Assembly (NCBI RefSeq): GCF_000687475.1 | Contig: NC_057322.1 | Location: forward strand, 62,001-126,000 | Source of the DNA: Ustilaginoidea virens | Taxonomy: Eukaryota; Ascomycota; Sordariomycetes; Hypocreales; Clavicipitaceae | DNA length: 64,000 nucleotides | Direction of reading: 5' to 3' | In this document: piece by piece, positions 1-32,107 of the stretch | Position numbering within the stretch: position 1 is the first letter of the stretch | Layout of the letters: each line of letters starts with the position of its first letter | Made by a program: the position numbers and the translations under genes | The notes under the pieces: model-generated | Database searches by the model: none | Told to the model about the DNA's origin: nothing | Seen by the model: only the letters and a program-made list of their open reading frames with translations

Positions 1-333
1 ATCTAGTGGCCTATATAGCCGGTTAAGACCTGCAGGTCCGAATAGGTCTATACTAGTATATGCTAGCCTATGCCGAAGGTTACTGCGGTCGTAGGCCGAT
101 ATAAGCCATATATTATAGTGCGTCTATAGTAGATTCTATAATATAGGCTGTATTAGGACCTAATAGCATATATAGCCGGTTAGGACCTATAGGTCCGAAT
201 AGGCCTAGGCGAGCCTACGCATAAGGAGCATACAATTATTCGCGAATATAGGAACCCTATACAGTAGTATAGTGTCTCCGTAGTGCATTGCTTACTCTAG
301 GCTGTATTAGCATATACGATACTGGGAGGCTGG
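1..333. repeat. 157-bp tandem repeat, left copy
   Basis: The CCGGTT element recurs at about 19 and 176, a spacing of 157 bases. Each unit contains the palindromic motif (GACCTGCAGGTCCGAA type) followed by AATAGGTCTA and a stretch with GCCGAAGGTTACTGC. The same array, with one or two more units visible, lies at 23161-23640. Confidence 0.85.
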
Positions 334-1058
334 TTCGGACGTGCAGGTCTAAATAGGCCTATACTAGCCTATATACTAGGCAACCTTCGCTTGGTTAGTC
401 TATAGAGGCAGCTATAAGGGAGGAGTGGTTAGTCGGGGATAGGCGGCAGGCTTTATCCCCTCTTACGATAACTCTAAGGCTAAGTCTACCAGCCCCTACT
501 GAAACCTACTTTAGGCTTTATAAATAAGCTACTATTACTAAGGTGGTATATTAAAAGGTCGGCTAGGATAAGACCGGCTAGGCTAAGACTGGTTATATAG
601 CTGATAGGACGGGCGCTACTAATGGGGGCGGCATTAGGTAGCCCGTTCAAACCTGCAGGTCCGAAGCTTTACCTAATCTATACATATAGGAGGGTTACCT
701 GCATAGCTACACTACCTTACGCACATAGGTAGGTGCCTTATCTAAGGGAAAAAGGCCGGTAAGAGGTCAAAGGCCGCGATCGGGCATTACTATATATCTC
801 AGCAATATAGTATATGCGAGTGCCCTAGCTACCTAACCTATATACATACTTCGAAGAGGGAGAGCAGTAGGAATAAACAAGCTATCTACTGCACGACGAG
901 GATGCAGATATAGCAGCGGTGCTCGGCATAGCGCGGCGATATATAGCGCGCTATATATAAAGGCCTGATATAATTAGGTATACTAAACGATATCTACCTT
1001 ACTGGAAACAGAATATTAGAATCGGTAGTTGCATTAGCCTAGCTATAATAACTATGCC
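334..1058. other. No gene seen; degraded repeat DNA with two palindrome copies
   Basis: I see no coding signal on either strand. The palindromic motif occurs near 334 in the TTCGGAC orientation and near 648 in the opposite one. The stretch is matched at 23790-24514 in the right duplication copy, with transition differences only. Confidence 0.6.
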
Positions 1059-1390
1059 TATTAGAATCGCTATCGTAAGGTGCCCAATTGGGCACATACT
1101 GCGATAGATATGCCGCGCGCTGCTGCGCACGATATAGCCACTTTTGCCTGTTTACCCCCTATGCCTAGTAGGGCACGCGGGCAGCCCGGCCCGACCGCGC
1201 CAAGGCATATAACTACAGCACGCGCATAACCGAGGCTATATTATATAATTCCTCTCTTTTGCCTCTTTCCTACTTTCTTAGATAGTTATTAGCAAAATAA
1301 TAGAATACCTTTACTTCGTGATCAATGGGTATATTATACTACACGCGCGACCCTATATATAAATAGGTACCCCTTAATATGGCACCAATA
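1059..1390 (+). mobile_element. Solo LTR of the Copia-A family
   Basis: This matches the 339-bp LTRs of the complete Copia-A element at 34580 and 41517, from the start TATTAGAATCGC (TATCGGAATCGC in Copia-A) to the end CAATA (CAACA in Copia-A). It includes the internal palindrome TGCCCAATTGGGCA. Flanking 5-mers are ATGCC on the left and GTGCC on the right; the duplicated copy has GTGCC on the left and GTGCT on the right. A GTGCC target duplication, later mutated, explains all four. No internal element sequence remains, so this is an LTR-LTR recombination product. Confidence 0.9.
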
Positions 1391-1837
1391 GTGCCAGTAT
1401 AGAATGGTTCCTACGTGCGAGGATGCACCAATATATAGTAGCGGAATCGACTCGCTGCACGTGCTTAGGTCAGGTGGCCGCCTATCACCTGACTTATAGC
1501 AGCCCGCGGTATATATGTGTCACCAATAGGTGCCCCACTAAGGCTTATAGTCCCACCATATAAAACACACACATCGTCGGCTTCATACACATCCCGAATT
1601 TAAATATATGCACTAAACCTATGCTTATTAATGCCGACTAGGAGCTAATACCGCTAACTATAAGCTAATGCCTAGTAGGAGTATTATATATTTATAACCT
1701 TATCTCCCTTCTTTTATCGCTTGTTATCTTATTAATTATGCTTATATAAATCCTTATTATTAAATGCCTTTACTTTTATATCCTCTGCCTCTGCTATATT
1801 TCCTATTTCTATTTTAGTTGCAACGGACCCTAGAGTG
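1391..1837. other. Spacer, no gene seen
   Basis: Short stretch between the solo LTR and the 161-bp array. It keeps some CpA (ACACACACATC near 1565) and is conserved at 24847-25293. I see no ORF or RNA gene. Confidence 0.5.
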
Positions 1838-2310
1838 GCTTATATAAAGCCCTCTTCCCGGAAAGCCTATTAACCAGGCCCGAAATAGCCTTATTGCAAC
1901 GGTTAGTACATTAGAATAGCTTATATAAAGCCCTCTTTCCGGACCGACGCTATATATTTTCAGGTATAGGTCCTTCGACAACTTTAAGTCCGCAATATTA
2001 TTTTCAATATCTACTCGTCGTTATTGCGGATTGACTAGGCCCAAAATAGCCTTATTGCGATGGTCAGTATATTAGAATGGCTTATATAAAGCCCTCTTTC
2101 CGGAAAGATGCCATATATTTTTAGGTACGGGTCCTCCGATAACTTTAAGTCCGCAAAATTTTTTTTAATATCTGCTTATTATTATTACGGATTAACTAGG
2201 CCTAAAATAGCCTTATTGCGATAGTTAAGCTATCTTTCTGGAAAGACGATTGATTAGGCCTAAAATAGCCTTATTGCGATAGTCAAGCCATATTTCCGGA
2301 AAGCCTTATA
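1838..2310. repeat. 161-bp tandem repeat, left copy (2 full units)
   Basis: GCTTATATAAAGCCCTCTTT recurs at 1919 and 2080 (161 bp), after a half-unit occurrence at 1838. Units include CCGGAAAG, ATTTTTAGGTA and CAGGCCCGAAATAGCC-like segments. The right duplication copy has four such units, at 25375, 25536, 25697 and 25858. Two units (322 bp) account exactly for the change in alignment offset from 23,456 to 23,778. Confidence 0.9.
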
Positions 2311-2880
2311 GGTTAATACTTTTATAAGAAAGAATCTTTCGGCTAAAGTTTTTAATTAGAAACTTGTCTTTAAATCGTACTTGCTGCACTATAGCTACGT
2401 CTGTAAGCCAGTCTACCGCCACGATAGGCGGCTCTATATTCCCCTTCTTAGCTATATCCCTAAAGCGCTACTATATCTGCTGCTTGTCTAGGCTACTACT
2501 AATAAGCAGGTAGACAGGCTTAGGCTTAGCGAAACCTTCCTCCTCGGCCGTTATAGGCTTAATTATCGTGCTGCTGCGCGTGCAGTATAGCTTGAATATG
2601 GCTCCGTTAGCCTTAGTAATTAAGCGGTAGCTCTTAAGTCCGTTGCAGATCTTCTCCATATAGTAGGAGTCCTTTATTTAGGGGTAAGTAGATAAGGCGG
2701 GTATAATCACTATATTAAATGCCGCTATAATATTTAGTTGAAGGAGCGAGTCTATATATATACTATAGTGGCCGTTCGCTTTAGCCTTTTGTATCCTAGG
2801 GAGCGGATTCCTTATCGCCTAGCGCTATATTATAGCCCCTAGAATGCTCTCTTTATCTATTTACGGTAAATTAGTAAAGG
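2311..2880 (-). pseudogene. Degraded coding remnant, unknown (weakly BRCT-like)
   Basis: Read on the minus strand, 2860 to 2330 gives one fairly coherent frame broken by TAG and TAA. A stop-free part at 2471-2659 starts with MEKICNGLKSYRLITK. Downstream of it comes IEPPIVAVDWLTD, which loosely recalls a BRCT-type I-V-x-x-x-W-L pattern. That resemblance is weak and I do not assign a function. In the other duplication copy (26089-26660) the ATG has become ATA, consistent with RIP. It may be a pseudogene fragment carried by the duplicated segment. Confidence 0.35.
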
Positions 2881-2899
2881 TATACTAAATAAGGCCTGC

Positions 2900-5880
2900 A
2901 GCCTATATAGAATTAGCGCTTTTACTTACTATCTGGCAAGGTAGGCATAGTAGACGGCTAGATATAGCGATATAGGCATAATCAATCTCGCGTACAAGTA
3001 ATATTGCTGGTATATTATCTTAAGAGTGGCTAATATGCACTTTAATTATGGCTCGCAGCGTGATAAGAAAGCATGCTAAATCTCGTACTAGAGCACTAGC
3101 TAACTGCCTATTTTTATCGAGGTTTATAGAGAACCGCAGTTCTCCTTTATACCTATACTAATTAGTAGTAGTTAGGCATTAGGAAGATTATAAAGTAAAA
3201 GTAGCTAATATACACTTTAGTTGTGGCTTATAGTATAACGAGAAAGCATACTAAATCTCGTACTAGAGCACCAGCTGGCTGCCTATTTTCATCGAGGTTT
3301 ATAGAGAACCATAATTCTCCTTTATGCTTATACTAATATAGAATAACTATTAGTTGGTTAGTATTTTACCGCTAACTAAGGCGGATAAGAGGTAGAAGGG
3401 GGAAGTTAGAGCAGCTAGGTAAAGCCATACTGTATGCTAAGACTGAAGCATGCCTAGCTATATAGTGTATATATAGTGTATAGTCTAGGTGAGCGGGGCA
3501 GACGGCTGCTATCAGCTAGCAAGTAATATTGCCCCACACTACGCAGTTATGCCACTATAGAAAATTATTAATGCCTAGGGGCCATAATATTTATCTTCTT
3601 TAGTTATTATTTTCTTCCGCCGTTAATAAGCTAGATAGAATGCCTATAGCCTAAGGGCTATAATAATTATCTTCTTTAGCTATTATCTTCTTTAGCTATT
3701 ATCTTCTTTAGCCGTTAATAAGCTAGACGGAATGCCTATAGCCTAGGGATACCTCTATATCGAGTTAGGTAGTGAAAAAAAGAGCCGATACTGCTAAAAG
3801 ACCTAAACTTAGGGGCCTAAGTCTTATTAGCGCTAGGTAGAGCTATTCCCCTCGCTAATTAGTTAACTCTAAGGTTTTTCTCTCTATAACCGCAAACGAA
3901 GTTAATGCATTATAACTAAAAGTTAGGTGGTATTTTGCCGCTAAGCTGGAATCTTTTGCTGGTTGCGATATTCTTATGCGCTTTTGCTTATTATTTGGTA
4001 AGGTATATATAGAAAACGGGCGGGTATAGCGATAGAGGAGTGGCCGATCTAGCGTATAAGTAATAGTGCTAATATATAATTATTAAGAGTTAGTATTTTG
4101 CTGCTAATATAGAATCTTTCGCTAATTGCGATATTCTTAGGTCCTTCTTTCCGCAACTATAAATAAAGTCAACATATCTAGTTCTTATAGTATCGCTTAT
4201 AGGAATAATATCCTAATGACCTGGAAAAGAGAGCCTGGTGATAATAGCTTATATTCGTATAAATGTGCGAGAAATCTACTAGATTAATCCCCAGTCTTTA
4301 CTTATTATGCCAAATCCCTCCCGATAAGGCTGAGGATTATATAGATAGTCCCGCTAGTTAGCTCTAAACGCAGCCAAGCAGGCATTACCAACTCTACTTA
4401 GCCTTATCTATTATCGCTATCTGGGACTGGTTTATTATTATCTTTATCAATTTATTTAGCAATAGATATTTCCCTACACACATCCTTTATCTCATTAAAG
4501 AACACCTACGCTTTTATTCGCTATACTATAAGGTACATATAGTAAAAGGCCGGGTATAGCTATATAGGCGATATCGATCTTACGTATAAATAAGATTGCT
4601 GATATATTATTTTCTATAGGTTATTAAAAGGCACCCTAATCTTATCTAGGATAATATAGTAGTATATAGGCTAATATGTTCCTTATATAGCGATATACGA
4701 ACTAGTCTTCTCTGGTTTATTAGTCGACTTTTGCGTATAGTATAGGAAAAAAACGGTCTAATAGTTTATATTAGATAAGTCTGGCGTAAGCGAGTCTAAA
4801 TTAAGGTCTTAGCTAATATAGGAACCGCCCTCGATAAAAAGAGGAACTAAGATTTAGATATATATATTTAGCTATAAAACTATAGGGTTAGCCAAGCTAC
4901 CCTTCTAGATTTTATATTTTCTATCTAATCCCTCGATAGTTTTATAAAGAGTGCTAAAAGGTGTCCAGTTATCGCTAAGTTATTAAGCGCTATTTTTAAA
5001 GTCGGAACCTTTTATAAAGGCAACTAGACCTAGTTAGCGTATGCTATATAGTAAAGATAGGGGCAGCCTACTTTTAGGCAGATAGTTTCCCTCTTAAAGT
5101 AGAGTATTAATATCTATAGGCTCATTAATACTAATCAGCGGTTTCAACTTCTTACTATAGATAGTTTCTATATATAGTCTTATGTCATTTGCTCGGTATT
5201 GCAACGTAATCCTTAAGTCTTTATAACTAAATATCTTTTCGTCATTACCAAAAATGGCATATATGTTTTGCCGCTAACCTATACTCTTTCGCTGGTTGTA
5301 ATGTTTTCGTGCGCTCTTACTTGCTATCTAGTAAGGTAGGTATAATAGACGGCCGGATGTAGCGATATAGGCATAGTCGATCTTGCGTATAAGTAATATT
5401 ACTAGTATATCATCTTTTGCAGCTTAATTATAGGCACCCCTATCTCGTCTAGGATAACGCCTATATAGCTACACCCGGCTGTATTCTACTACTATCAGCA
5501 ATATTACTCGTACATAAGATTAATTATATGGTAGTGGATAGGCGTTAGCGGTTTCCCGCTAATGTAAAATCTTTCGCTAGTAGCGATATTCTTATACGCT
5601 TTTACTTATTATCGTATAAGGTAGGCATAGTAGACGGCTAGATGCAGTAATATAGGCGTGGTTAATCTCGCGTACGAGTAATACTACTTATATATAATGA
5701 TTAATAATTAGCATTTTGCCGCCAATATAGAATCCTTCGCTAGTAGCGATATTCTCATACACTCTTACTGCCTATCCTATAAGGTAAGTATAGTAAAAGC
5801 CTAGGTATAGCGATATAGGCATGGTCGATCTTATGTATAAGTAATATTGCTAATAAATTATTTTCTGCAGCTTATTGATA
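2900..5880. repeat. Interspersed ~110-bp module, six copies, left duplication copy
   Basis: A module of about 110 bases recurs irregularly near 2915, 3960, 4505, 5300, 5590 and 5755. It contains TTACTTGCTATCTAGTAAGG, then TAGACGG..GGATGTAGCGATATAGGC and GCGTATAAGTAATATT. Several copies are preceded by a segment like TTTTGCCGCTAATATAGAAT. Spacing is uneven, so this is not a simple tandem array. Intervening DNA has no stop-free coding frame. It could be a decayed repeat-containing gene or nested copies of a small element. Confidence 0.6.
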
Positions 5881-6186
5881 GGTACCCCTATCTCGTTAAG
5901 GATAATATAGTAATGGATAGGCCGAGCTAATCCTTATATAGGGATATACGAACTAGCATTTTGCCAAGATAATATAATATTAGACCGGGCGAGCTATTGC
6001 TTATATAGCGATATATAAACTAGCATTTTGCTAGGATAATAATCCTATAGCTCTATATTAGCTAAGTTATTTTTAAGGAATTCCTTATACCCACTTATAA
6101 TATTACTAACCTTATAAAAATATTTATAGGGCTAAAGTATTAATATGATAATATAGGTATTATAATCCGGCGATAAAGTAGGGAAA

Positions 6187-6400
6187 TTATATCCTAGAGG
6201 GAAGAAAATAGAGGGTAAGAAAGAAGGATAAGAGTAAAAGAAAGGAAGACGGAAAAGAGTAAAAGAAAAGAAAAAGGATAAAAATAAAAGTAAAAAAAAG
6301 GAGTAAAGGTAAGGAAAAAAGAAGGGAGTATAGGTATAGCGGGTAGTAGATAAAGAGGCTATAAATCAAGCTAGTAAAGAAGAAGGTCGTAAGGTAGTAG
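6187..6400. repeat. Polypurine tract (GGAAG/AAAAG rich)
   Basis: The plus strand is almost pure A+G with periodic single T or C (AAGGAAGACGGAAAAGAGTA and similar). The apparent minus-strand 60-residue frame is only Leu/Phe/Ser low complexity from the pyrimidine strand. It is matched at 29950-30180 in the duplicate. Confidence 0.75.
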
Positions 6401-6639
6401 TAAATTATAGGAAGTAATAAGCGTACCTAATAGGTATATAGGTATATAGTATATATGGCCGCGTTATAGCAGCGGCTGCTTATATGACCCTAGTACGCAC
6501 TTATATCTACGGTACGCATACATAACTACAGCACGTATATATAACTGCCGCATATATATATATAAAGGCCATATCGTTAGATATAGCGCTATCCGCCCTT
6601 TTCCTCCTTTTTCCCGCTTTGCTTAATATAGATAGAAGC

Positions 6640-6840
6640 CTATTAGGACCTGTAGGTCTAAATAAATAAGCATGCAAGCCCTATAGGACCTGCAGGTCTA
6701 AATAAATAAGCATGTAAGGCCTATTGGGACCTATAGGTCTGAATAAATAAGTATGTAAGGCCTATTGGGACCTATAGGTCTGAATAAATAAATATATAAG
6801 CCCTATTGGGACCTGCAGGTCTAAATAATATATATATAAG
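6640..6840. repeat. 41-bp palindrome array, type A, five units
   Basis: Five units of about 41 bp. Each has the palindromic core (GGACCTGCAGGTC and its RIP variants) followed by GAATAAATAAGCATGCAAGC. The right duplication copy has six units (30418-30655). The core resembles the one in the 157-bp array, but the rest of the unit is unrelated. Confidence 0.9.
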
Positions 6841-6849
6841 CTTAAATTA

Positions 6850-7115
6850 TATCCTATAAGGAGGAGAGTAAAGTATAAGAAAGAAGGAAGAGAGTAAAAT
6901 ATAAAAAAGAAGGAAGAAAGTAAAGTATAAGAAAGAAGGAAGAGAGTAATATATAAGAAAGAAGGAAGAGAGTAAAATATAAAAAAGAAGGAAGAGAGTA
7001 ATATATAAAAAAGAAGGAAGAAAGTAAAAGTAAAAAAGAAAAAGGAGAGTAAAAATAAGAAAGAAAAAAGAGAATAAGGGTAAGGAAGAAAAAAGAGAGT
7101 ATTAGTATAAAAGGT
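6850..7115. repeat. Purine-rich imperfect tandem repeat
   Basis: Repeats of roughly 26 bp of the form GAGAGTAAAGTATAAGAAAGAAG, strongly purine-biased on the plus strand. Equivalent DNA lies at 30670-30920. Confidence 0.8.
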
Positions 7116-7410
7116 AGTACGTAAAGAGATTAGGAATAAAGCTAGTAAGGAAGAAGGTCATAAGGTAGTAAATAGTAAGAAGTAAGGTAATAACGCTATT
7201 AGAATTATTAGTTAGTCGGTTAGTTAGCCAGTTATTTAGCGCATCTAACTAGGTATATGGCATATAAGGCTGCGGTACGGCTACGGCTGCCTATATAACC
7301 GCAGCACGCATATATAACTGCGGCACGTATATATAAAAAGGCTATATCGTTAGATGTAGCGCTATCTGCCCTTTTCCTCTTTATTACCGCTTCACCTAGT
7401 ATAGATAGAA

Positions 7411-7612
7411 GCCTATTAGGACCTGTAGGTCCGAATAAATAAGCATGCAAGCCTTATTGGGACCTATAGGTCCAAAGAGGTAGGTATATAAGCCTTACTA
7501 GGACCTGCAGGTCCAAAGAGGTAGGTATATAAGCCTTACTAGGACTTATAGGTCTGAAGAGGTAGGTATATAAGCCTTACTAGGACCTGCAGGTCCGAAG
7601 AGATAAGTATAC
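7411..7612. repeat. 41-bp palindrome array, type B, four units
   Basis: After one type-A unit at about 7411, four units combine the palindromic core with GAAGAGGTAGGTATATAAGCC. The right duplication copy has three (31270-31390). A single further palindrome lies at about 7786. Confidence 0.85.
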
Positions 7613-7867
7613 AAGGTAATATATGGTAGTACGATATATATATAAAGCGCTATATGCTATAGAGTAGTAGTATTAGTATTGGGAATTAAAGGGTACCTAT
7701 TATAATATAGGGTATGTATATAAAGGGAAATAATAAACGAATAAAGAAGATATATCTTACTTTTACTAAATCAATAGTATAGTTGGGACCTACAGGTCTA
7801 AAGTAGTTTATTTAATATATACGCCTTTAGGGTAATATTATATATACTAATAGCGCGTCTGCCTGTA

Positions 7868-8050
7868 TTTAGAGTAAAGTCACGTGTATTGCTTGCGCGC
7901 CTTTTACTGTATGCCCTATATGCCTTTAGAGTGAGGTCATGTGTATTGCTTGCGCGCCTTTTGCTGTATGCACTGCATGCCTTTAGAGTGAGGTTACGTA
8001 TATTGCTTGCGCGCCTTTTGCCGAATCCCCTGCTAGCCTTTACAGTAAGG
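7868..8050. repeat. 57-bp tandem repeat, three units
   Basis: TTTAGAGT starts units at 7868, 7925 and 7982, with a degenerate fourth near 8039. The unit contains GTATTGCTTGCGCGCCTTTT. In the other copy six units start at 31647-31932. The three extra units (171 bp) account exactly for the offset change from 23,779 to 23,950. Confidence 0.9.
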
Positions 8051-8157
8051 TGATTATGTATATTGCTTGCGCGCCTTTAGGATACTTTATATACACGCGA
8101 ATTTTATAGTGCATAATATATAGTGATACTTTAGTCAAATATTTGCCCCTTACTTAT

Positions 8158-9300
8158 AGAGCGGTACTTTATATGCACGCGAAATTTAGCGTATATGAGT
8201 ATATACTAAGTCGATTTAATATTTAGTAGGTATATAGGTATAATACCCCTATCGCCAGAGGATTTTCCAGATTTAGCTTAAAAAAACAACAACAGTCGGA
8301 TACTTTACGTACACGCGAGTTTAATAGTGTATAGTATATAGTGATACTTTACTCAACTGGTTGCCCTAGGGAGTAAATGGTTGCCCCTTATTGTAGAGCG
8401 GTACTTTATATGCATGCGAAATTTAGCGCATATAAGCATATACTGAGTCGATTTAATATTTAGTAGGTATATAGGTATAATACCCCTATCGCTAGAGGAT
8501 TTTCCAGATTTAGCTTAAAAAAACAATAATAGTTAGATACTTTACGTATACGCGAGTTTAATAGTGTATAGTATGTAGTAATACTTTACTCAACTGGTTG
8601 CCCTAGGGAGCAAATAGTTGCCCCTTATTGTAGAGCGGTATTTTATATGCACGCGAAATTTAGCGCATATAAGCATATACTGAGTCGATTTAATATTTGG
8701 TAGGTACGTAGGTACAATACCCCTATCGCCAGAGGATTTTCCAGATTTAGCTTAAAAAAATAACAATAGTCGGATACTTTACGTGCACGCGAGTTTAATA
8801 GTATATAATATATAGTGATACTTTACTTAACTGGTTGCCCTAGGGAGCAAATGGTTGCCCCTTATTATAGAGCGGTACTTTATATGCACGCGAAATTTAG
8901 CGCATATAAGCATATACTGAATCGATTTAATATTTAGTAGGTATGTAGGTATAATACCCCTATCGCCAGAGGATTTTCTAGATTTAGCTTAAAAAAATAA
9001 CGATAGTCGGATACTTTACGTGCACGCGAGTTTAATAGTATATAGTATATAGTGATACTTTACTCAACTGGTTGCCTTAGGGAGCAAATGGTTGCCCCTT
9101 ATTATAGAGCGGTACTTTATATGCACGCGAAATTTAGCGCATATAAGTATGTACTGAGTCGATTTAATATTTAGTAGGTACGTAGGTATAATACCCCTAT
9201 CGCCAGATGATTTTCTAGATTTAGCTTAAAAAAATAACGATAGTCGGATACTTTATATGCACGCGAGTTTAATAGTGCATAGTATATAGTAATACTTTAG
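8158..9300. repeat. 237-bp tandem repeat, five units
   Basis: AGAGCGGTACTTTATATGCA starts at 8158, 8395, 8632, 8869 and 9106, always 237 bases apart. Units include CGCGAAATTTAGCGCATATA, GAGGATTTTCCAGATTTAGC and ACTGGTTGCCCTAGGGAGCA. The duplicate has five units too (32108 onward). Confidence 0.92.
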
Positions 9301-9885
9301 TCAAATAGTCACTTAAAGAGCGGTACTTTATATGCATATAGATTTTACATGCCTCTATAAGTATTTGCCTAAGGAAATAGTTGCCCCTTAATTATAGAGT
9401 GGTATTTTATATATACGCGAAAATTTGCGTGCCTTTATATATACCAATAGTTGCCTAAGCAAATGGTTACCTAGTGAAATAGTTGCCTAGGTAAATAGTT
9501 TTTTAGGTAAATAGTTACTTAGGCAAATAGTTGCCCCTTATTTATAGAGTGGTACTTTATATGCACATAAATTTTGCGTGGCTCTATATATATTAGTACC
9601 TTATACGAACGGTTGCCCTTCATTTATAGAGTGGTACTTTATATATACGCGAATTTTGTGTGGCTCTCTATATATAAGTACTTTATGCGAATGGTTGCTA
9701 CTTAGAGCAGAGCAACTAGTTGCCCCTTAATTGTAGAGTGGTACTTTGCGTATATACAAAAATTTGCGCGCCTCTTAATGTACTGGTACTTTATGCGATT
9801 AGTTGCCCCTCACTTGTCTGAATTAAGCCAGGAAATTTTTTTTTTAGTGGAGCGGTACTTTGCGTGTATGTGAAAATTTGCGCGT
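9300..9885. repeat. Degenerate short repeats derived from the 237-bp unit
   Basis: Shorter variants of the same themes follow the 237-bp array: AGAGTGGTACTTTATATGCA, AATAGTTGCCTAGG and AATTTTGCGTG, with irregular spacing. The stretch ends with AAGCCAGGAAATTTTTTTTT near 9830. I see no coding frame. Confidence 0.7.
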
Positions 9886-9946
9886 ATCTGTATGTACCGA
9901 ACCTGCGACCCACTGGCCTGACCCTGCCCCTAGAAGGGACTCTAAT
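9886..9946. other. Unmutated end of the duplicated segment
   Basis: About 60 bases ending TAGAAGGGACTCTAAT are identical at 33836-33896 and keep CpA and TpG (CCCACTGGCCTGACCCTGCC). The rest of the duplication is RIP-mutated, so this edge escaped or was homogenised. Confidence 0.75.
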
Positions 9947-10049
9947 GAGGGTCGCTACTACCTATAATAGGGTCGATGGGCGTTCCTAGCAGGGGGAAAT
10001 AGTAGATTAGCTACCGTAGTCCTTGCCCTTATATAAGTAGGGTATCCTT

Positions 10050-11365: not shown

Positions 11366-11549
11366 ACTTCTGCCTTACTAAGGAGGATAAAAGAAAGAGA
11401 TAGATAGGGCTAGCTAGCTAGTAGTATAGTCTATAACTAGGGTCGGACGAGAGGGCAGTAGATATAGAAGATGACCTAGCGTATCGTATAATATAATGCA
11501 TATATAGACACCTGGCCTTTTCGCACTAGTGTCTAATGCTATATTTGCC

Positions 11550-17960: not shown

Positions 17961-17970
17961 GCTGGTTATC
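17606..17970. repeat. 96-bp tandem repeat, about 3.5 units
   Basis: GGTCTAGCGGATAGCC recurs at 17702, 17798 and 17894, exactly 96 bp (32 codons) apart, with a diverged earlier unit from about 17606. Both strands stay open. On plus it encodes LEAGLADSLGNIL..GPAYREAIDRA repeats. On minus it continues the gene A phase with an Arg/Leu/Ser-rich repeat. I cannot decide which strand was translated. Confidence 0.75.
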
Positions 17971-17974
17971 CTAA

Positions 17975-18970: not shown

Positions 18971-18979
18971 CTCTATTAT

Positions 18980-20220: not shown

Positions 20221-21630
20221 AAAAAGGAAGAAGGGTAGGATATACTAAGGCTTACTTATATAAAAGAGGAAAAGAGAGAAAAAGGTAGGGCAAATAGTAG
20301 GATAAGAAAAAAAGAGTATAAGTTATAATAAGGGGGAAAGAAAGGAAGAAGGGAGGGAGAAATTAAGGCTTTATATAGGAGAAAGAAATTGAGGGAATAG
20401 GAGTAAAAGTAAAGGGAAAGTGAAAGTAAGAAGGCAAAAGGAAGGTAAAGGGAAAATAAAGGCAGGAAATATATTAATTCTTTGCTTCAATAGGCCTTAC
20501 TTCCGCTACTAAATAGGCGAGCATATACGATAAAGTTAGGTGTATAGCTGTAAATCGCAGGTGGTTTTGGTTCGGACCTATAAGTCTGAGCTGGTTCTCC
20601 TGCTCGCCTACTTTATCGCTATTCTATCGTGCTTTATTATCTACGATATATAGATCCTATGAAATAGTAATAGTACCTTCTCTATAGACTATAGTAATAA
20701 GCAATATTCTAATAGTGTCTCTATACGACTGACTGACTAGAAGGGATAAAAAGGGTAAGAGTAGACGTAAAGGCGAGATATAGGGCTATAGCGCCATAGG
20801 TTCTATGGAAAGTATTTATAATGCCACGCGCCATATACTATTATAAGGTGCTATCTGCTACGATGCCCCCCTCTATATTCTGGCAGCTTAGAATAAAGCT
20901 GGCAAGCTTTACTATTAGGGAGGTTAGTATATAGGTCTTTATAGAGTAGGTGGTCGTAAAGATTATATATATTAGTAGGCGTTCTCTATATTACTAGAAG
21001 ACTCTGACTACTATGCCCCCCCGGTTAAGTCGTAATAATTGATGTGTCTTATTCTTATGTATAATGATAAATTACTATATAGAGCCTATTAGGGAAGAGG
21101 GAGAAGAAGATTATCGGGTTAGAATTATATTAAACTAAGGTCTCGGATCAACTTAGGTTTCTAATATTTAATACCCCCCTCCCCGTTAGAATATAGTTAG
21201 GCACGTAGGCTGGGCCGCGCTGCTTATATAGTAGTCACTATAGCATATACATACAACCTTGGTAGGTTGGGGGGCGACGCTATAGTACGACTATATGGCC
21301 CGGTTGGGACCTGCAGGTCTGAACCACCCTACCGCCTATATAGCTTATCGTATTATAGCGCATATATATAGTGACACACTCTTAATTCGTAGTTAGCTAT
21401 ATAGGTATACATCTATCTATACTATATGTTTGCGTCTAATATAATACTATACTAAGTAAAAATATATCCCCCTATAGTCGTTCGATAAAATATAAAGCAA
21501 AATGCCTGCGAATACACCTAAGTTATATGCCAAGCAATATAGCCCCCCCCCTTAGTATTAGCTAAAAACGAAAAAAACAAAATAAAACGCCACCTTATAT
21601 TTCCTATTAGTGGTTAATAAAAATAAAAAA
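20221..21630. other. Purine-rich tract and palindromes, no gene seen
   Basis: 20260-20470 is purine-rich (GGAAGAAGGGAGGGAG and similar). The dispersed palindrome occurs at about 20571 (TTCGGACCTATAAGTC) and 21305 (GGGACCTGCAGGTCTGAA). C-runs lie near 21174 and 21542. I see no supported coding frame. Confidence 0.55.
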
Positions 21631-21639
21631 AGCAAATCA

Positions 21640-22720
21640 CCTCTTACTACCGCGCGCCTAGTAGCGTATATTCGTATTATTAATACTTATAAGTTAAATC
21701 ATACTCCTATAATATAATATTATCTTTAAAGTAGAATTCATTTTTAAAATAGCTATTACTATAGTTATCGTATGCGGCATCTTTTGCGTCGCCGTTATTA
21801 TAGGCGCTAGAATAGGTACTAGTGCCTATTTTTATAAATTCTTAATCTTTATCTATATCGTAGAGTATGCTATTGGTAGGTGAAGGGGGGGGGGATGCGA
21901 TACTACTAGTGCGGGAAGAAGCAATACTACTAGGGGGGGGAGGGATATAGCGGAGTGATTATATAGGGTGTGGTCGGCTAAAGTACTCCTAATGCTATTA
22001 GTAAAGAGACTTGGCGATATCCCTTTTAAAGTCCTAATAGGCTAGATAGGGATAGTGTATAGAAGGGTTTATAATATGCAAAAAATGCTTCTGGTATATA
22101 GCCTTTTTGAACTCTATCGCTTCGATATATAGTATTCGTAGGCGTCTTTCGGCTATTGCAAAATATCGGAGGAATATAGCTACTATAGACTAGAACGCCG
22201 GTATTATCGTTATTATTAATATTTCATTAGTGTTAGGTAGGCGGGCGGCGGTACTATCGACTAGCTTCTAAAGGCTAGTTCTATTATATATTATATTGAA
22301 GAGCATAAGGTATTTGCCGGCTAATATCTCCTAGCGTATAATTAACTTACTCTTTCTAAGGTAGTAGCGGCCGTAGAGCAAATACTAATCGTAGGAGCTA
22401 CTGTTTTATATACTAGTATAGTATAGGAACCTAGAGATAAATCTATTGCATATATAGTTATAGTATAGCTGTGCGGGCGATACTTATACGAGAGCGTCCT
22501 AGTCTTCTATTTAGATAGTTTTATCGGTAAGCCTATTGGGCAAATAGGTTTAAGCATCTAGTCTACTAGTGATCCTCCTATAGGTTAACGCATAAAGGTT
22601 CGTAAATAGCTCATCAAATATACTAAATAATGCCGTAGGGATAATCAACTCTTTCTCTATGCCGTATTTTGTGGCATCTATAGCCGAGGTAGGTTAAGCT
22701 ATTATATCCGTCTTAGTTAT
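21640..22720 (-). pseudogene. RIP-degraded gene D, unknown function
   Basis: The minus strand from about 22700 (DATKYGIEKELIIPTALF) to 21900 (PPPPSS region) reads in one frame with only TAG/TAA breaks. It then continues in another phase to about 21650 (NGDAKDAAYDNYSNSYF) across a G9 run at 21887-21895, a likely slippage site. The middle part is hydrophobic and helical (NTNEILIITIIPAF, VAIFLRYFAIAERRLRIL). I recognise no family. A 20-A run upstream (22800-22819) and purine-rich DNA at 22735-22800 flank its 5' side. Confidence 0.45.
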
Positions 22721-23160
22721 TAGTATAAAAAAGAAGAAAGGAGGGATAAAAAGGGAAGAAAAAAGAAAGGAAGGAAGAAAAAAAAAGAATAAATTTATAG
22801 AAAAAAAAAAAAAAAAAAGTAGGTACTAAGATAAAATATAATTAGATCGTATATATATAATTCTTTATTATCTATAATAAGAGTAAATAAGCTACGATAG
22901 CAGTTCCTATATAATTCTATAGTAACTCAAGAGTATTAGGTAAGTCGGCGCACCGAATTATAAGGTATACCCCGCTTTTCCCCGCACTAGGAGTTGCTAG
23001 CCCTACTGCAGGACCTATAGTAGTAGAGCCGTACTAGTAGAGCCGTACTACTATGCCTATTAGTATATAGGCTATCTTATTAGGGCTCGCGCGTTATCCT
23101 CTGCCTATTACTTATGCATTCTAATGCTTATAACTTCTATATATATGGTAGTCTGAGGGG

Positions 23161-23800
23161 CCGGTTGGGACCTATAGGTCCGAACAGGTCTATATTAGTA
23201 TATGCTGGCTTATGCCGAAGGTTACTGCAGTCGTAGGCCGATATAAGCTATATATCATAGTGCGTTTATAGTAGATTCTATAATATAGATTATATTAGGA
23301 TTTAGTGGCCTGCGTGGCCGGTTGGGACCTATAGGTCCGAATAGGTCTACGCTAGTATATACTGGCCTATGCCGAAGGTTACTGCAGTCGTAGGCCGACA
23401 CAAGCTATATATCATAGTGCGTCTATAGTAGATTCTATAATATAGGTTGTATTAGGATCTAGTGGCCTACGTGGCCGGTTGGGACCTATAGGTCCGAATA
23501 GGTCTATACTAGTATATACTAGCCTATGCCGAAGGTTACCGCGGTCGTAGGCCGATATAAGCTATATATTATGGTGCGTTTATAATAGATTCTATAATAT
23601 AGGCTGTATTGGGACCCGGTAGCGTGCGTAGCTGGTTAGGACCTATAGGTCCGAATAGGCCTAGGCGAGCCTATACATAAGGAGCATATAGTCGTTCGCG
23701 AATATAGGAACCCTATACGGTAGTGTAGTGTCTCTATAGTATATTGCTTGCTCTAGGCTATATTAGCATATATAACGCTAGGAGGCTGGTTCGGATATAT
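23161..23800. repeat. 157-bp tandem repeat, right copy (three units plus a partial)
   Basis: CCGGTT or its variants recur at 23161, 23318, 23475 and 23632, each 157 bp apart. Each unit carries the palindromic motif (GGGACCTATAGGTCCGAA). The array extends left of the part aligned to window position 1, so the duplication may begin before 23457. Confidence 0.9.
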
Positions 23801-24514
23801 AGGTCTAGATAGGCCTATACTGGCCTATATACTAGGCAACCTTCGCTCGGTTAGTCTATAGAGGTAGCTATAAGGGAGGAGTGGTTAGTCGGGGATAGGC
23901 GGCAGGCTTTATCCCCTCTTACAATAACTCTAAGGCCAAGTCTACCAGCCCCTACTAAAACCCACTTTAGGCTTTATAGGTAAGCTGCTATTACTAGGGT
24001 GGTATATTAAAAGGTCGGCTAGGATAAGACCGGCTAGGCTAAGACTAATTATATAGCCGATAGGACAGGCACTGCTAACGGGGGCGGTACTAGGTAGCCA
24101 GTTTAAACCTACAGGTCCGAAGCTTCACCTAGTCTGTGCATATAGGAGGGTTACCTGTATAGCTACGCTACCTTACGCATATAGGTAGGTGCTTTATCCA
24201 AGGGAAAGAGGCCGGTGAGAGGTTAAGGGCCGCGATCGGGCATTACTATATATCTCAGCAATATAGTATATGCAAGTGCCCTAACTACCTAACCTATATA
24301 TATACTTCGAAGAGGGAGAGTAGTGGGAATAAGCGAGCCATCTACTGCACGATGAGGATGCGGATATAGCGGCGGTACTCGGCGTAGCGCGGCGATATAT
24401 AGCGCGCTATATATAAAGGCCTAATATAATTAGGTATACTAAACGATATCTACTTTACTAGAAACAGAATATTAGAATCGGTAGTTATATTAGCTTAGCT
24501 ATAATAACTGTGCC

Positions 24515-24846
24515 TATTGGAATCGCTATTGTAAGGTGCCTAATTAGGCATATACTGCGATAGATATACCGCGCGCTGCTGCGCACGATATAGCCACTTT
24601 TGCCTATTTACCCCTTATGCCTAGTAGGGCATACGGGCAGCCCGGCCCGACTGCGCCGAGGCATATAACTATAGCACGCGCATAACCGAGGCTATATTAT
24701 ATAATTCCTCTTTTTTGCCTCTTTCCTACTTTCTTAGATAGTTATTAGCAAAATAATAGAATACCTTTGCTTCGTGATCAATAGGTATATTATACTATAC
24801 ACGCGACCCTATATATAAATAAGTACCCCTTAATATGGCACCAATA
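24515..24846 (+). mobile_element. Solo Copia-A LTR, duplicated copy
   Basis: Orthologous within the duplication to 1059-1390 (offset 23,456 at both ends). The left flank is GTGCC and the right flank GTGCT, so it shares the insertion site and predates the duplication. Confidence 0.9.
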
Positions 24847-25293
24847 GTGCTAGTATAGAATGGTTCCTATATGCGAGGATGCACCGATATATAGTAGCGG
24901 AATCGACTCGCTGCATATGCTTAGGTTAGGTGGCTGCCTATCACCTGACTTACAGCAGCCCGCGGTATATATATGTTACTAATAGGTGCCCCACCAAGGC
25001 TTATAGTCCCACCATATAAAACACACATATTATTGGCTTCATACACATCCCGAATTTAAATATATGCACTAAACCTATGCTTATTAATGCCGACTAGGAG
25101 CTAATACCGCTAACTATAAGCTAATGCCTAGTAGGAATATTATATATTTATAACCTTATCTCCCTTCTTTTATCGCTTGTTATCTTATTAATTATGCTTA
25201 TATAAATCCTTATTATTAAATGCCTCTGCTTTTATATCCTCTGCCTCTGCTATATTTCCTATTTCTATTTTAGTTGTAACGGACCCTAGAGTG

Positions 25294-26085
25294 GCTTATA
25301 TAAAGCCCTTTTCCCGGAAAGCCTATTAACCAGGCCCGAAATAGCCTTATTGCAATAGTTAGTACGTTAGAATAGCTTATATAAAGCCCTCTTTCCGGAC
25401 CGACGCCATACATTTTTAGGTATAGATCCTTCAACAACTTTAAATCCGCAATATTATTTTCAATATCTACTCGTCGTTATTGTAGATTAACTAGGCCCGA
25501 AATAGCCTTATTGCGATAGTCAGTATATTAGAATGGCTTATATAAAGCCCTCTTTCCGGAAAGACGCCATACATTTTCAGGTATAGGTCCTCCAATAACT
25601 TCAAGTCCGCAATATTATTTTCAATATCTGCTTATCGTTATTACGGATTAACCAGGCCCGAAATAGCCTTATTGCGATGGTTAGTATATTAGAATGGCTT
25701 ATATAAAGCCCTCTTTCCGGAACGACGCCATACATTTTCAGGTACAGGTCTTCCGATAACTTTAAGTCCGCAATATTATTTTTAATATCTACTTATCGTT
25801 ATTGCGGATTAACCAGGCCTAAAATAGCCTTATTGCGATAGTCAGTATATTAGAATGGCTTATATAAAGCCCTCTTTCCGGAATAATGCTATATATTTTC
25901 AGGTATAGGTCCTCCAATAACTTTAAGTCCGCAAAATTTTTTTCAATATCTACTTATTATTATTGCGGATTGATTAGGCCCGAAATAGCCTTATTGCGAT
26001 GGTTAAGCTATCTTTCCGGAAAGATGATTGACTAGGCCAAAAATAGCCTTATTGCAATAGTTAAGCCATATTTCCAGAAAGCCTT
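25294..26085. repeat. 161-bp tandem repeat, right copy (four full units)
   Basis: Unit starts (GCTTATATAAAGCCC) are at 25375, 25536, 25697 and 25858, with a half-unit start at 25294. It has two more full units than the left copy. Confidence 0.9.
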
Positions 26086-26088
26086 ATA

Positions 26089-26660
26089 GGTTAATACTTT
26101 TATAAAAAAGAGTCTTTCGGCTAAAATTTTTAATTAGAAACTTATCTTTAAATCGCATTTGCTGCGCTATAGCTATATCTGTAAGCCAGTCTGCCGCTAC
26201 GATAGGCGGCTCTATATTCCCCTTCTTAGCTATATCCCTAAAGTGCTACTATATCTACTACTTGTCTAGGCTACTGCTAATAAGCAGGTAGACAGGCTTA
26301 GGCTTAGCGAAACCTTCCTCTTTAGCTGTTATAGGCTTAATTATCGTGCCGCTATGCATACAATATAGCTTAAATATGGCTCCATTAGCCTTAGCAATTA
26401 AGCGGTAGCTCTTAGGTCTGTTGCGGATCTTCTCTATATAGTAGGAGTCCTTTATTTAGGGGTAAATAGATAAGGCGGGTATAATCACTATATTAAATGC
26501 CGCTATAATATTTAATTGAAGGAGCGAGTCTATATATATGCTATAGTGGCCGTTCGCTTTAGCTTTTTATATCCTAGGGAGCGGATTCCTTATCGCCTAG
26601 CGCTATATCGTAGCCCCTAGAATGCTCTCTTTATCTATTTACAGTAAATTAGTAAAGGTA
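26089..26660 (-). pseudogene. Degraded coding remnant, duplicate of 2311-2880
   Basis: Same minus-strand remnant as in the left copy, with further transitions. The candidate ATG is ATA here. No function assigned. Confidence 0.3.
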
Positions 26661-26689
26661 TACTAAGTAAGGCCTGCAGCCTATATAGA

Positions 26690-29650
26690 ATTAGCGCTCT
26701 TACTTGCTATTTAGCAAGGTGGGCGTAATAGACGGCCAGATACAGCAATATAGGCGTAGTCGATCTCGCGTATAAGTAATATTACTAGTATATTATCTCA
26801 AAAGTAGCTAATATGCACTTTAGTTATAGCTCGCAGCGTGATAAGAAAGCATGCTGAATCTTGTACTAAAGTACTAGCTAACTGCCTATTTTTATCAAGG
26901 TTTATAGAGAACCATAGTTCTCCTTTATACCTATACTAATTAGTGGTAATTAGGCATTAGGAAGATTATAAGGTAAGAGTAGCCAATATACACTTTAGTT
27001 ATAGCTCGCAGCATAACGAGAAAGCGTGCTAAATCTCGTACTAGAGCACTAGCTAGCTGCCTATTTTCATCGAGGTTTACAAAGAACCGTAGTTCTCCTT
27101 TATGCCTATACTAATATAGAATGACTATTAGTTAGTTGGTATTTTACCGTTAATTAAGGCGGATAAGAGGTAGAAGGGGGAAGTTAGAGCAGCTAGGTAA
27201 AGCTATACTATATACTAAGACTGAAGCATGCCTAGCTATACAGTATATATATAGTGCACAGTCTAGGTGAGCGGGGCAAATGGCTACTATCAGCTAGTAA
27301 GTAATATTGCCCCGCACTATACGGTTGCGCCACTATAGAAAATTATTAATACCTAGGGGCCGTAATATTTATCTTCTTTAGTTATTATTTTCTTCCGCCG
27401 TCAATAAGCTAGACAGAATGCCTATAGCCTAGGGGCTATAATAATTATCTTCTTTAGCTATTATTTTCTTTAGCCGTTATCTTCTTCAGCCGTTAATAAG
27501 CTAGATAGAATACCTATAGCCTAGGGACACCTCTATATCGAGTTAGGTAGTAAAAAAAAGAGCTAATGCCGCCAAAAGACCTAAACTTAAGGGCCTAAGT
27601 CTTATTAGCACTAGGTAGAGCTATTCCCCTCGCCAATCAGTCAACTCTAAGGTCTTTCTCTCTATAACCGCAAATAAAGTTAATATATTATAACTAAAAA
27701 TCGGGTGGCATTTTGCCGCTAAGCTGGAATCTTTTGCTAGTTGCGATATTCTTATGCACTTTTGCTTGCTATTTAGTAAAGTATATATAAAAAACGGGCG
27801 GGTATAGCGATAGAAGAGTAGCCGATCTAGCGTATAAGTAATAGTACTAATATATAATTATTAAGAGTTAGCATTTTACCGCCAATATAGAATCTTTCGC
27901 TAATTGCGATATTCTTAGGTCCTTCTCTCCGCAACCATAAATAAAGTCAATATATCTAGTTCTTATAGTATCGCTTATAGGAATAATATCCTAATGACCT
28001 AAAAAAGAGAGCCTAGTAATAATAGCTTACATTCGTATAAACGTGCGAGAAATCTACTAAATTAATCCCTAGTCTTTACTTATTATGCCAAATCCCTCCC
28101 AATAAGGCTGAGGACTATATAGATAGTCCCGCTAGTTAGCTCTAAACGCAGCTAAATAGGCATTACTAACTCTACTTAGCCTCGTCTATTATCGCTATCT
28201 AGGATTAGTTTATTATTATCTTCGTCAATTTATTCAGCAATAGATATTTCCCTATATATATCCTTTACCTCATTAAAGAACACCTACGCTCTTATTCGCT
28301 ATACTATAAGGTATGTATAGTAAAAGGCCGGGTATAGCCATATAGGCGATATCGATCTTGCGTATAAATAAGATTGCTAATATATTATTTTCTATAGGTT
28401 ATTAAAAGGCACCCTAATCTCGTCTAGGATGACATAGTAGTATATAGGCCGATATATTCCTTATATAGTAATATGCGAACTAGTCTTCTCCGGTTTATCA
28501 GTCGATTTTTGCGCATAATATAGGAAAAAAACGGTCTAATAGTCTATATTAGATAAATCTAGTATAAGCGAGTCTAAATTAGGGTCCTAGCTAATATAGG
28601 AACCGCCTTCGATAAAAAGAGGAACTAAAATTTAGATATATATATTCAGCTATAAAACTATAGGGTTAGCCAAGCTACCCTTCCAGACTTTATATTTTCC
28701 ATTTAGTCCCTTAATAGTTTCATAAAGAGTGCCAAAAGGTATCTAATTATCGCTAAGTTATTAAGCGCTATTTTTAAAGTCAGAACCTTTTATAAAGGCA
28801 ATTAGACCTAATTAGCGTATACTATATAGCAAAGATAGGGGCAGCCTACTTTTAGGCAGATAGTTTCCCTCTTAAAGCAGAGTATTAATATCTATAGGCT
28901 CGTTAATACTAATCGGCGGTTTCAACTTCTTACTATAGATGGTTTCTATATATAGTCTCATATTATTTACTCGATATTGCAATATAATCCTTAAGTCTTT
29001 ATAACTAAATATCTTTTCGTTATCGCCGAAAATAGTATATATATTTTGCCGCCAATCTATACTCCTTTACTAATCGCAATATTTTCGTGCGCTCTTACTT
29101 ACTATCTAGCAAAGTAGGCATAATAGACGGCCGGATATAGCGATATAGGCGTAGTCAATCTCGCGTACGAGTAATATTACTAGTATATTATCTTTTGCAG
29201 TTTAATCATAGGCACCCCTATCTCGTCCAGGATGACGCCTATATGGCTGCACCCAGCCGTATTCTACTATTATTAGCAATATTACTTATATGTAAGATCA
29301 ACCATATAGTAGTGGATAGGCATTAGCGGTTTCCCGCTAATGTAAAATCTTTCGCTAGTAGCGATATTCTTATGCGCTCTTACTTACTATCGTATAAGGT
29401 AGGCATAATAGACGGCCGGATATAGCGATATAGGCATAGTTAATCTCGCGTATGAGTAATACTGCTTATATATAATGACTAATAATTAGCATTTTGCCGC
29501 CAATATAGAATCCTTCGCTAGTAGCGATATTCTCATACGCTCTTACTGCCTATCCTATAAGGTAAGTATAGTAAAAGCCTAGGTGTAGCGATATAGGCGT
29601 AGTCGATCTTACGTACGAGTAATATTACTAATAAATCATTTTCTACAGCT
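26690..29650. repeat. Interspersed ~110-bp module, right copy
   Basis: The module seen at 2900-5880 recurs in the same order near 26700, 27750, 28290, 29085, 29375 and 29545. No supported gene lies in this stretch. Confidence 0.6.
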
Positions 29651-29949
29651 TATTAATAGGTACCCCCATCTCGTTAAGGATGATATAGTAGTAGATAGGC
29701 CGAGCTAATCCTTATATAGGGATATACAAACTGGCATTTTGCCAAAATAATATAATATTAGACCGGGCAAGCTATTACTTATATAGCGATATATAAACTA
29801 GCATTTTGCCAAGATAACGATCCTATAGCTCTATATTAGCCAAGTTATTTTTAAGGAATTCTTTATACCTACTTATGATATTACTAACCTTATGAAAATA
29901 TTTATAGGGCCGAGGCATTAATATAATAATATAGGTATTATAATCCGGC

Positions 29950-30180
29950 GATAGAGTAGGGAAATTATATCCTAAAGGGAAGAAAGTAGAGGGTAAAAAA
30001 GAAGGATAAGAATAAAGGAAAGGAAGATAGAAAAGAGTAAAGGAAAGGAAGAAGGATAAAAATAAAAGTAAAAAAAAAGAGTAAAAGTAAGGAAGAAAGA
30101 AGGGAGTATAAGTATAGCAGGTAGTAGATAAAGAGGCTATAAATTAAGCTGGTAAAGAAGAAGGTCATAAGGTAGCAGTA
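29950..30180. repeat. Polypurine tract, right copy
   Basis: A+G-rich plus strand, counterpart of 6187-6400. The minus-strand 67-residue frame is Leu/Phe/Ser low complexity. Confidence 0.7.
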
Positions 30181-30417
30181 AATTATAAGAAGTAATAAGC
30201 GTACCTAATATGTATATAGGTATATAGCATATATAGCCGCGTTATAGCAGCGGCTGCTCACGTGACCCCAGTACGCACTTATATCTGCGGCACGCATATA
30301 TAACTGCGGCACGCATATATAACTGCCGCATATATATATATAAAGGCCATATCGTTAGATATAGCGCTATCCGCCCTTTTCCTCTTTTTTCCCGCTTCGC
30401 CTAGTATAGATAGAAGA

Positions 30418-30655
30418 CTATTAGGACCTATAGGTCTGAATAAATAAGTATACAAGCCCTATAGGACCTACAGGTCTGAATAAATAAGCATGCAAGCCCT
30501 ATAGGTCTTATAGGTCTAAATAAATAAGCATATAAGGCCTATTGGGACCTGCAGGTCTGAATAAATAAGTATACAAGCCCTGTTGGGACCTGCAGGTCTG
30601 AATAAATAAGTATGCAAGCCCTATTAGGACCTATAGGTCTGAATAATATGCATAC
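30418..30655. repeat. 41-bp palindrome array, type A, six units
   Basis: Six units of palindrome core plus GAATAAATAAGCATGCAAGC, against five in the left copy. Confidence 0.9.
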
Positions 30656-30669
30656 AAGCCTAAATTATA

Positions 30670-30920
30670 TCCTATAAGGAGGAGAGTAAAATATAAGAAA
30701 GAAGGAAGAGAGTAAAATATAAAAAAAGAAGGAAGAGAGTAAAATATAAAAAAAAAAGAAGAGAGTAATATATAAAAAAAAAGGAAGAGAGTAAAATATA
30801 AAAAAGAAGGAAGAAAGTAATATATAAGAAAAAAGGAAGAAAGTAAAAATAAAAAAGAAAAAGGAGAATAAAAATAAAAAAAAAAAAAAGAGAGTAAGAA
30901 TAAAGAAGAAGAAGGAGAGT
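30670..30920. repeat. Purine-rich tandem repeat, right copy
   Basis: GAGAGTAAAATATAAGAAAG-type repeats, counterpart of 6850-7115, with more A-runs. Confidence 0.75.
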
Positions 30921-31237
30921 ATTAGTATAAAGGGTAGTGCATAAAGAGATTAGGAATAAAGCTGGTAAGGAAGAAGGTCATAAGGTAGTAAATAGTAAGA
31001 AGTAAGGTAATAATGCTATTAAAATTATTAGTTAGTCGGTTAGTCAGCCAGTTATTTAGCGCATCTAACTAGGTATATAGTATATAAGGCCGCAGTACAG
31101 CCACAGCTGCCTATATAACCGCAGTACGCATATATAACTACGGCACGTATATATAAAAAGGCTATATCGTTAGATATAGCGCTATCTGCCCTTTTCCTCC
31201 TTATTACCGCTTCGCCTAGTATAGATAGAAGCCTATT

Positions 31238-31395
31238 AGGACCTACAGGTCCGAATAAATAAGCATGCAAGCCTTACTAGGACCTATAGGTCCGAAGAGG
31301 TAGGTATATAAGCCTTATTAGGACCTGCAGGTCCGAAGAGGTAGGTATATAAGCCTTACTAGGACCTATAGGTCTAAAGAGATAAGTATATAAGG
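31238..31395. repeat. 41-bp palindrome array, type B, three units
   Basis: One type-A unit, then three units with GAAGAGGTAGGTATATAAGCC. The left copy has four. A single palindrome follows at about 31565. Confidence 0.85.
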
Positions 31396-31646
31396 TAATA
31401 TATAGTAGTACGATATATATATAAAGCGCTATATGCTATAGAGTGGTAGTACTAGTATTAAGAATTAAAGGGTACCTATTATAATATAGGGTGCATATAT
31501 AAAGGGAAATAATAAACGAATAAAGAAGATATATCTTACTTCTACTAAATCAATAGTATAGTTGGGACCTGTAGGTCTGAAGTGGTTTATTTAATGTGCA
31601 TGCCTTTAGGGTAATATTATATATACTAATAGCGCGTCTGCCTATG

Positions 31647-32010: not shown

Positions 32011-32107
32011 TATTGCTTGCGCGCCTTTAGGATACTTTATATGCACGCGAATTTTATAGTGCATAATATATAGTGATACTTTAGTCAAATATTTGCCCCT
32101 TACTTAT

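Follow-up and report, generated by a model that had tools for sequence, protein, structure and literature searches.

A dispersed palindrome in a subtelomeric repeat of Ustilaginoidea virens: a putative recognition site of a symmetric DNA-binding protein

The window analyzed in this work is a stretch of 64,000 nucleotides (C7:62001-126000) in a subtelomeric region of the rice false smut fungus, Ustilaginoidea virens. It carries many sites of a short palindrome, which has the oriented pattern GTTnGGACCTGCAGGTCCGAAc once repeat-induced point mutation (RIP) is undone column by column. The pattern is tentatively read here, with a probability of about 0.4, as a putative recognition site of a two-fold symmetric, probably homodimeric DNA-binding protein, copied, amplified, and then mutated by RIP. 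In this proposal, the site would first have been copied to 16-19 places within one long subtelomeric repeat; the repeat would then have been amplified at chromosome ends, giving about 200 sites; and RIP would have mutated the sites afterwards.

Palindrome sites in the window and in the genome

In the window, GGACCTGCAGGTCC was found 24 times at no more than 2 mismatches, against a mean of 0.01 in shuffled sequences. A RIP-tolerant score over 24 bp reached at least 22 at 36 sites, while ten first-order shuffles gave 0, 0, 0, 0, 0, 0, 0, 2, 0, and 0. The original prediction, made from the letters of the window, had counted about 36 recognizable copies, and this number stands. All the single positions that it named are present, as are the pair at 62.2 kb and the arrays of 157 bp and 41 bp; its listing was nevertheless incomplete, with the sites at 11631 and 23788 overlooked. 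The sites are as follows.

21..201, + strand: end of the 157-bp array, 2 sites (21-44, 178-201)
332..355, - strand: single site, context 25511, better fit reversed
644..667, + strand: single site, context 25823
6641..6827, + strand: 41-bp array A, 5 sites
7414..7601, + strand: 41-bp array B, 5 sites, homologous to array A
7781..7804, + strand: single site, context 33282
11631..11654, + strand: single degenerate site, context 13119, overlooked earlier
20569..20592, + strand: single site, context 22291
21302..21325, + strand: single site, context 23024, best preserved of the window
23163..23657, + strand: 157-bp array, 4 sites
23788..23811, - strand: single degenerate site, context 25511, overlooked earlier
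24100..24123, + strand: single site, context 25823
30419..30645, + strand: 41-bp array A of unit 2, 5 sites scoring at least 22
31234..31380, + strand: 41-bp array B of unit 2, 4 sites
31560..31583, + strand: single site, context 33282
62185..62208, + strand: first of the pair in helicase intron C, context 4823
62216..62239, - strand: second of the pair in helicase intron C, context 4854, better fit reversed

Because one long repeat is present in the window several times over, many of these sites are a single context counted two or three times. Within the repeat, however, the motif occurs in 16-19 contexts: sorting the sites of its reference copy gave 19, and 16 once partly related ones were removed. 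Both orientations occur, as had been proposed; of the 18 contexts in the reference copy of the repeat (C7:1-36200, the least mutated), the forward pattern fits better in 13 and the reversed in 5. The flanks of different contexts are mostly unrelated, with a mean identity over pairs of 11.4/40 and a gapped similarity of 5.31 near the sites vs 5.16 far away. The idea of a short module common to unrelated contexts is thereby upheld.

The genome-wide scans covered the 37.16-Mb assembly. The pattern GGACCTRYAGGTCY gave 262+277 strand matches and its reversed form 0+0; the exact 14-mer gave 33 sites with none in the control; the 12-mer GACCTGCAGGTC gave 77 with 2 in the control; and TTNGGACCTGCAGGTCCNAA (summary form TTnGGACCTGCAGGTCCnAA) gave 215 sites at no more than 2 mismatches, with 3 for the reversed control. 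The frequency, which was to be compared with a shuffled expectation, is thus far above control. The places of these sites are given among the matches listed, where they fall in one subtelomeric repeat family, except for C3:909406 and two 12-mers on C5. Descent of all copies from one longer repeat, which had been set against the idea of a dispersed module, is borne out insofar as the listed sites belong to one family, but not for the 16-19 contexts inside it.

Among the matches listed, C3:909406-909429 (TGTTCAGACCTGCAGGTCCGAACG) is the only site of TTNGGACCTGCAGGTCCNAA with no more than 1 mismatch on C1-C6 away from the ends. Its surroundings have 57-60% GC and, apart from some weak matches, resemble the repeat in nothing but the site. 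It adjoins a DnaJ/TPR gene, identical to an Ustilaginoidea virens protein in 475/545 aligned columns (62 gaps), with differences around one unspliced intron. The exact 12-mer occurs on C1-C6 away from the ends at C3:909412, C5:952232, and C5:4810129 among the matches listed. The two on C5 were rejected as true copies: their flanks fit poorly, one having no site scoring 18 or more and the other having one of 24.2. They are chance-like; random occurrence would give about 2 (control 2). Interior half-sites (GTTNGGACCTGCA) were found at 4 places besides the C3 copy (control 0+2), which is the chance level.

Conservation pattern of the palindrome

The palindrome is the top dispersed k-mer of the reference repeat in a k-mer search. 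A matrix scan of this repeat found 34 sites scoring at least 22 vs 0.2 in shuffles; weaker sites were not in surplus, so there is no tail of decayed copies. The 14-bp palindromic core described in the original prediction is real, yet the conserved unit is longer, about 20-22 bp.

With RIP undone, transversions in the 19 contexts fall in 10/38 cells at positions 4 and 19, vs 4/342 at positions 2, 3, 5-18, 20, and 21 (p=2e-8), a contrast that the selection of sites partly favors, the scan matrix having given positions 4 and 19 zero weight; to that extent it counts against the proposed site. In the 16 stricter contexts, the numbers are 8/32 and 2/288 at the fixed positions. A fairer control for the free position 4 uses the inner 12 bp as the sole seed. 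In 12 contexts found in this way, TT is retained at positions 2-3 (1.2 and 1.75 bits), and position 4 is open (0.2 bits). One position per half is therefore free between fixed neighbors, and the fixed positions are symmetric, as in a site read by a dimer. Positions 4 and 19 are complementary in 5/19 contexts; base-pairing is not preferred, which argues against selection for a DNA or RNA hairpin.

Three observations together favor the recognition site of a symmetric protein, namely a free position within each half, positions 4 and 19 without pairing, and no decayed intermediates; the free position inside each otherwise fixed half-site supports what had been proposed earlier as one option among several. 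A protein would bind the motif, and binding may have preserved the fixed positions while the contexts diverged. The sites probably spread by the copying of short palindromic tracts, because the asymmetry at G4/G19 and outer remnants of the form AGGCC..GGCCT are common to the copies. The role of the site may concern chromosome ends, as silencing, barrier, replication, or clustering.

Three known site types were tried and rejected. For a Zn2Cys6 site (a CGG inverted repeat), position 4 is C in 3/19 oriented contexts, and one half is usually without CGG. For a telomere-type TTAGGG half-site, position 4 is A in only 2/19. The spacing of a transfer RNA B box is off by one base from its consensus. 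An Rfam search of the window gave no match.

RIP and present-day constraint

Alignment of the reference copy with 7 stretches gave 7019 mismatches, of which 6964 are transitions (3943 at CpA) and just 55 transversions; the units are thus recent copies, and their divergence is nearly all due to RIP. The change of CTGCAG to CTATAG had been ascribed to RIP, which these numbers confirm, and it is explained by the TGCA center, a two-sided RIP target. With divergence of this kind, a selection test within contexts has little power. Polarized non-RIP cells of the core number 23 vs 39.0 expected (ratio 0.59, null 2.5% bound 0.62), the sole hint of constraint. As judged from the flanks, there is no clear constraint on the present copies: the comparison neither shows nor excludes it.

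Recognition site or passive palindrome

Several findings weigh against a recognition site. In the oriented contexts, position 4 is G in 12/19 and position 19 is G in 14/19, so that the freedom of these positions is only partial. The information content is 29.5 bits, where 17.1 bits are needed to find the sites, and this points to common descent. Core differences within contexts number 96 vs 98.7 expected from trinucleotide-matched flanks (ratio 0.97), and RIP-type cells of the core change above expectation, 20 vs 8.2. Moreover, no protein is known to bind the motif, although none has been sought by experiment. Palindromic operators of dimeric proteins likewise have two-fold symmetry and free positions among fixed ones, but the copies in U. 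virens share more sequence than binding needs.

The main and serious rival is a passive mobile micro-palindrome. In this view, about 24-34 bp of self-complementary sequence would have spread within the repeat through hairpin-primed template switching or other copying, with no host function. It is possible, if more doubtful than the recognition site. The shared asymmetry at position 19 and the excess of information speak for it, as does the outer palindromic remnant, the right flank matching GGCCT at 45/95 positions vs 25.6 expected. Taken together, these three features indicate that the copies descend from one another. All three palindrome clusters of the helicase pseudogene, described below, lie in introns or an inferred intron, as if copies in exons had been lost, which also suits a passive element.

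Such an element may be compared with the mobile palindromes that reportedly occur in fungal mitochondria. PstI palindromes and GC clusters of these mitochondria are short palindromic sequences with CTGCAG in the middle, scattered over many unrelated positions in both introns and spacers. The motif of U. virens is similarly short, centered on CTGCAG, and placed at many unrelated sites including introns; unlike them, it is nuclear, confined to one subtelomeric repeat, and different in sequence, with no present mobility seen.

The original prediction suggested a mobile module; recent mobility was not found, the site being kept in 62/62 aligned copies of 14 single contexts. The proposed search for target duplications in the flanks covered 20 sites with four assumed boundaries; perfect ones of 4, 5, 6, or 8 bp were absent throughout, and those of 3 bp occurred at no more than 4/20. 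Neither a target-site duplication nor presence and absence between repeat copies, as in a miniature inverted-repeat transposable element or a DNA transposon, was thus observed. Divergent helicase fragments (two on C5, one on C4) provided no empty sites: they match helicase exons and span no palindrome. The retention of all copies and the absence of target duplications stand against a passive mobile palindrome, and so do the interior half-sites at chance level, the decayed copies without surplus, and the one variable position per half among fixed neighbors.

A plain relic would be another explanation: the sites would come from one old, broken-up internal tandem array of the repeat, neither mobile nor functional. 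Some pairs of contexts do share flanks (41A/41B, 28/40; 25511/157, 20/40; 10334/9130, 20/40), but the low mean identity over all pairs, and the gapped similarity nearly as high far from the sites as near them, make this origin improbable.

Helicase pseudogene and introns

The repeat contains a helicase pseudogene, on the minus strand of the reference copy, whose stops lie mostly where its intact relative P0001 has Q or W. P0001 (1340 amino acids, source 'lgn', 87% identity) matches SNF2-rel_dom (PF00176) in Pfam with 37.6 bits (cut-off 24.9), while ResIII stays under its cut-off. A PDB search with a 133-amino-acid piece of the helicase gave no match. Two features of this gene lie in the window.

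62413..63066 (C7:124413-125066), - strand: part of the unit 3 helicase pseudogene, 80% identical to the reference piece, 7 internal stops
62150..62263, - strand: intron C of the helicase pseudogene, placed by offset from reference C7:4788-4901

Absent from P0001 are precisely the stretch with the pair C7:4823/4854 and the one with the 118-bp array C7:6743-7036. Each begins with GTAAGC and ends with AG, so the two palindrome clusters lie in introns, as this independent protein confirms. The third cluster, 9130, precedes the start of P0001; the stretch that holds it has GTACGT, CTAAC, and TAG and is probably also an intron. The pair in the window, 62185/62216, is in intron C of unit 3.

These positions raise the question of an intron or RNA hairpin element, in which the palindrome would be the folded core of proliferating, introner-like introns. 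The three stretches form 12.9% of the gene, and all three clusters would lie inside them by chance with a probability of 0.002, a post hoc figure. Symmetrical proliferating introns have been described in Hypoxylaceae (PMC8469720). As far as the accessible part of that report goes, they too are symmetrical sequences in introns without flanking duplications, but whole introns are copied there, with inverted repeats of 45-55 nt, whereas the contexts in U. virens share about 20 bp and lie mostly outside the helicase introns. Judged by eye, the helicase introns share the palindrome only and are not copies of a whole intron; most contexts are outside the gene, and neither the pairing of positions 4 and 19 nor the Rfam search of the window points to a folded RNA. 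An introner-like origin is accordingly a rather remote prospect.

A second gene of the repeat may lie at C7:13000-17800 on the minus strand. Four stop-free pieces from C7:13-18 kb and one at 19 kb gave nothing above a Pfam cut-off.

Repeat units and tandem arrays

The subtelomeric repeat is about 36 kb long and includes the SNF2-type helicase pseudogene. The reference copy, used as a blastn query, delimited three units in the window, and two of these lack their telomere-side part.

1..9946, + strand: repeat unit 1, reference 24714 onward, starting upstream of the window at C7:61535
9942..33902, + strand: repeat unit 2, reference 11398 to 35861
57254..64000, + strand: repeat unit 3, from reference 126, continuing past the window

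The units form a head-to-tail array with truncation on the telomere side, and the sites have been amplified with them. All 6 unit ends inspected (4 on C7, 2 on C1) reach GGGACTCTAAT or GGGACTCTGAT, and the next units begin at reference 9598, 24714, 11398, or 20731. Unit ends such as 9942-9946 have a constant CTRAT after CCCTAGAAGGG; this resembles a Helitron 3' end (CTRR before T). The left flank of unit 3 recurs ahead of C1:4655, so the full repeat extends beyond the reference copy. The beginning of unit 3 is strongly AT-rich (54001-58000, GC 0.21-0.25).

Telomere-type CCCTAA repeats open C7 and C1, and TTAGGG repeats close C7; none were found at the C7 unit junctions examined. Interstitial CCCTAA runs occur at C1 4131-4229, about 4.1 kb from the C1 end and immediately ahead of the repeat. 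A 1-kb marker of the repeat had at least 22 near-full-length matches, on C1, C2, C4, C6, and C7, which reach up to about 150 kb from the contig end among the matches listed. Weak matches of the marker were also seen at C3:437137 and C4:3415181, and interior repeat fragments without the palindrome lie at C4:4724501-4727500 (656 bp at 83% and 313 bp at 90%).

The tandem arrays had been considered mutually unrelated, which does not hold for 41A and 41B. They sit in the two copies of a duplicated stretch of about 650 bp (reference 31701-32341 and 32465-33116, about 73% identity), and array B opens with a unit that bears the A spacer. A further array at C7:6743-7036, outside the window, has a 118-bp unit with two palindromes. 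That breakage at the palindrome initiated the arrays, as earlier suggested, could draw on its presence in four of them (118, 157, 41A, 41B). However, 41A and 41B are one lineage, the observed repeat units start elsewhere (the four reference positions above), and arrays with units of at least 20 bp cover 17.1% of the reference repeat and hold 4/18 contexts, a chance level (P=0.37). The palindrome is thus not enriched in arrays, amplification starting at it is unsupported, and such an origin is hardly credible.

Other elements were noted in the window. A different palindrome, TTGCCTAGGCAA, spans the unit borders of a 16-bp array (unit AATAGTTGCCTAGGCA) at 9446-9535 and 33396-33485. A Copia-type long terminal repeat retrotransposon occupies 48011-53310, with direct repeats at 48011-48746 and 52577-53310 (97.7% identity) and an open reading frame at 48870-50939 with RVT_2. 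The inverted similarity of 73-77% between 36757-39355 and 47002-54908 represents older relatives of this element or its flanks.

Comparison with other fungal chromosome ends

Classical telomere-linked helicases are of the RecQ type, whereas the repeat gene of U. virens is of the SNF2 type (PF00176 in P0001). In its place beside the telomere on several chromosome ends (C1, C2, C4, C6, and C7), this helicase-type gene resembles the telomere-linked helicase genes of fungi, as far as the available text describes them (PMC12857005; named in PMC8381367). In Pyricularia, subtelomeric tandem arrays with truncated units follow telomere failure (PMC8381367). The part of that report at hand describes head-to-tail, variously truncated units near chromosome ends, as in U. 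virens; the units there are of 4 kb with interstitial telomere repeats, whereas here they are of about 36 kb with none at the examined C7 junctions. A palindrome is not mentioned in that part of the report (0 occurrences of 'palindrom'). The accessible text of one U. virens genome paper (PMC13233505) likewise has no word starting with telomer or palindrom. Among the papers searched, none contains GGACCTGCAGGTCC and none was found on PstI palindromes with Neurospora.

A chromosome-end system may be imagined in which a dimeric protein binds the approximately 200 repeat-borne sites and clusters, silences, or insulates the ends, while the repeat propagates the sites, even in helicase introns. This fuller picture is unlikely. 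If a protein reads the site, the palindrome would offer a direct, testable handle on chromosome-end organization in a RIP-competent fungus, and an example of a repeat spreading binding sites through palindrome copying. If no protein reads it, the motif would represent a nuclear equivalent of the mobile palindromes of fungal mitochondria. In both cases, the sites serve as markers of how the units of this U. virens subtelomere are arranged and of its RIP history.

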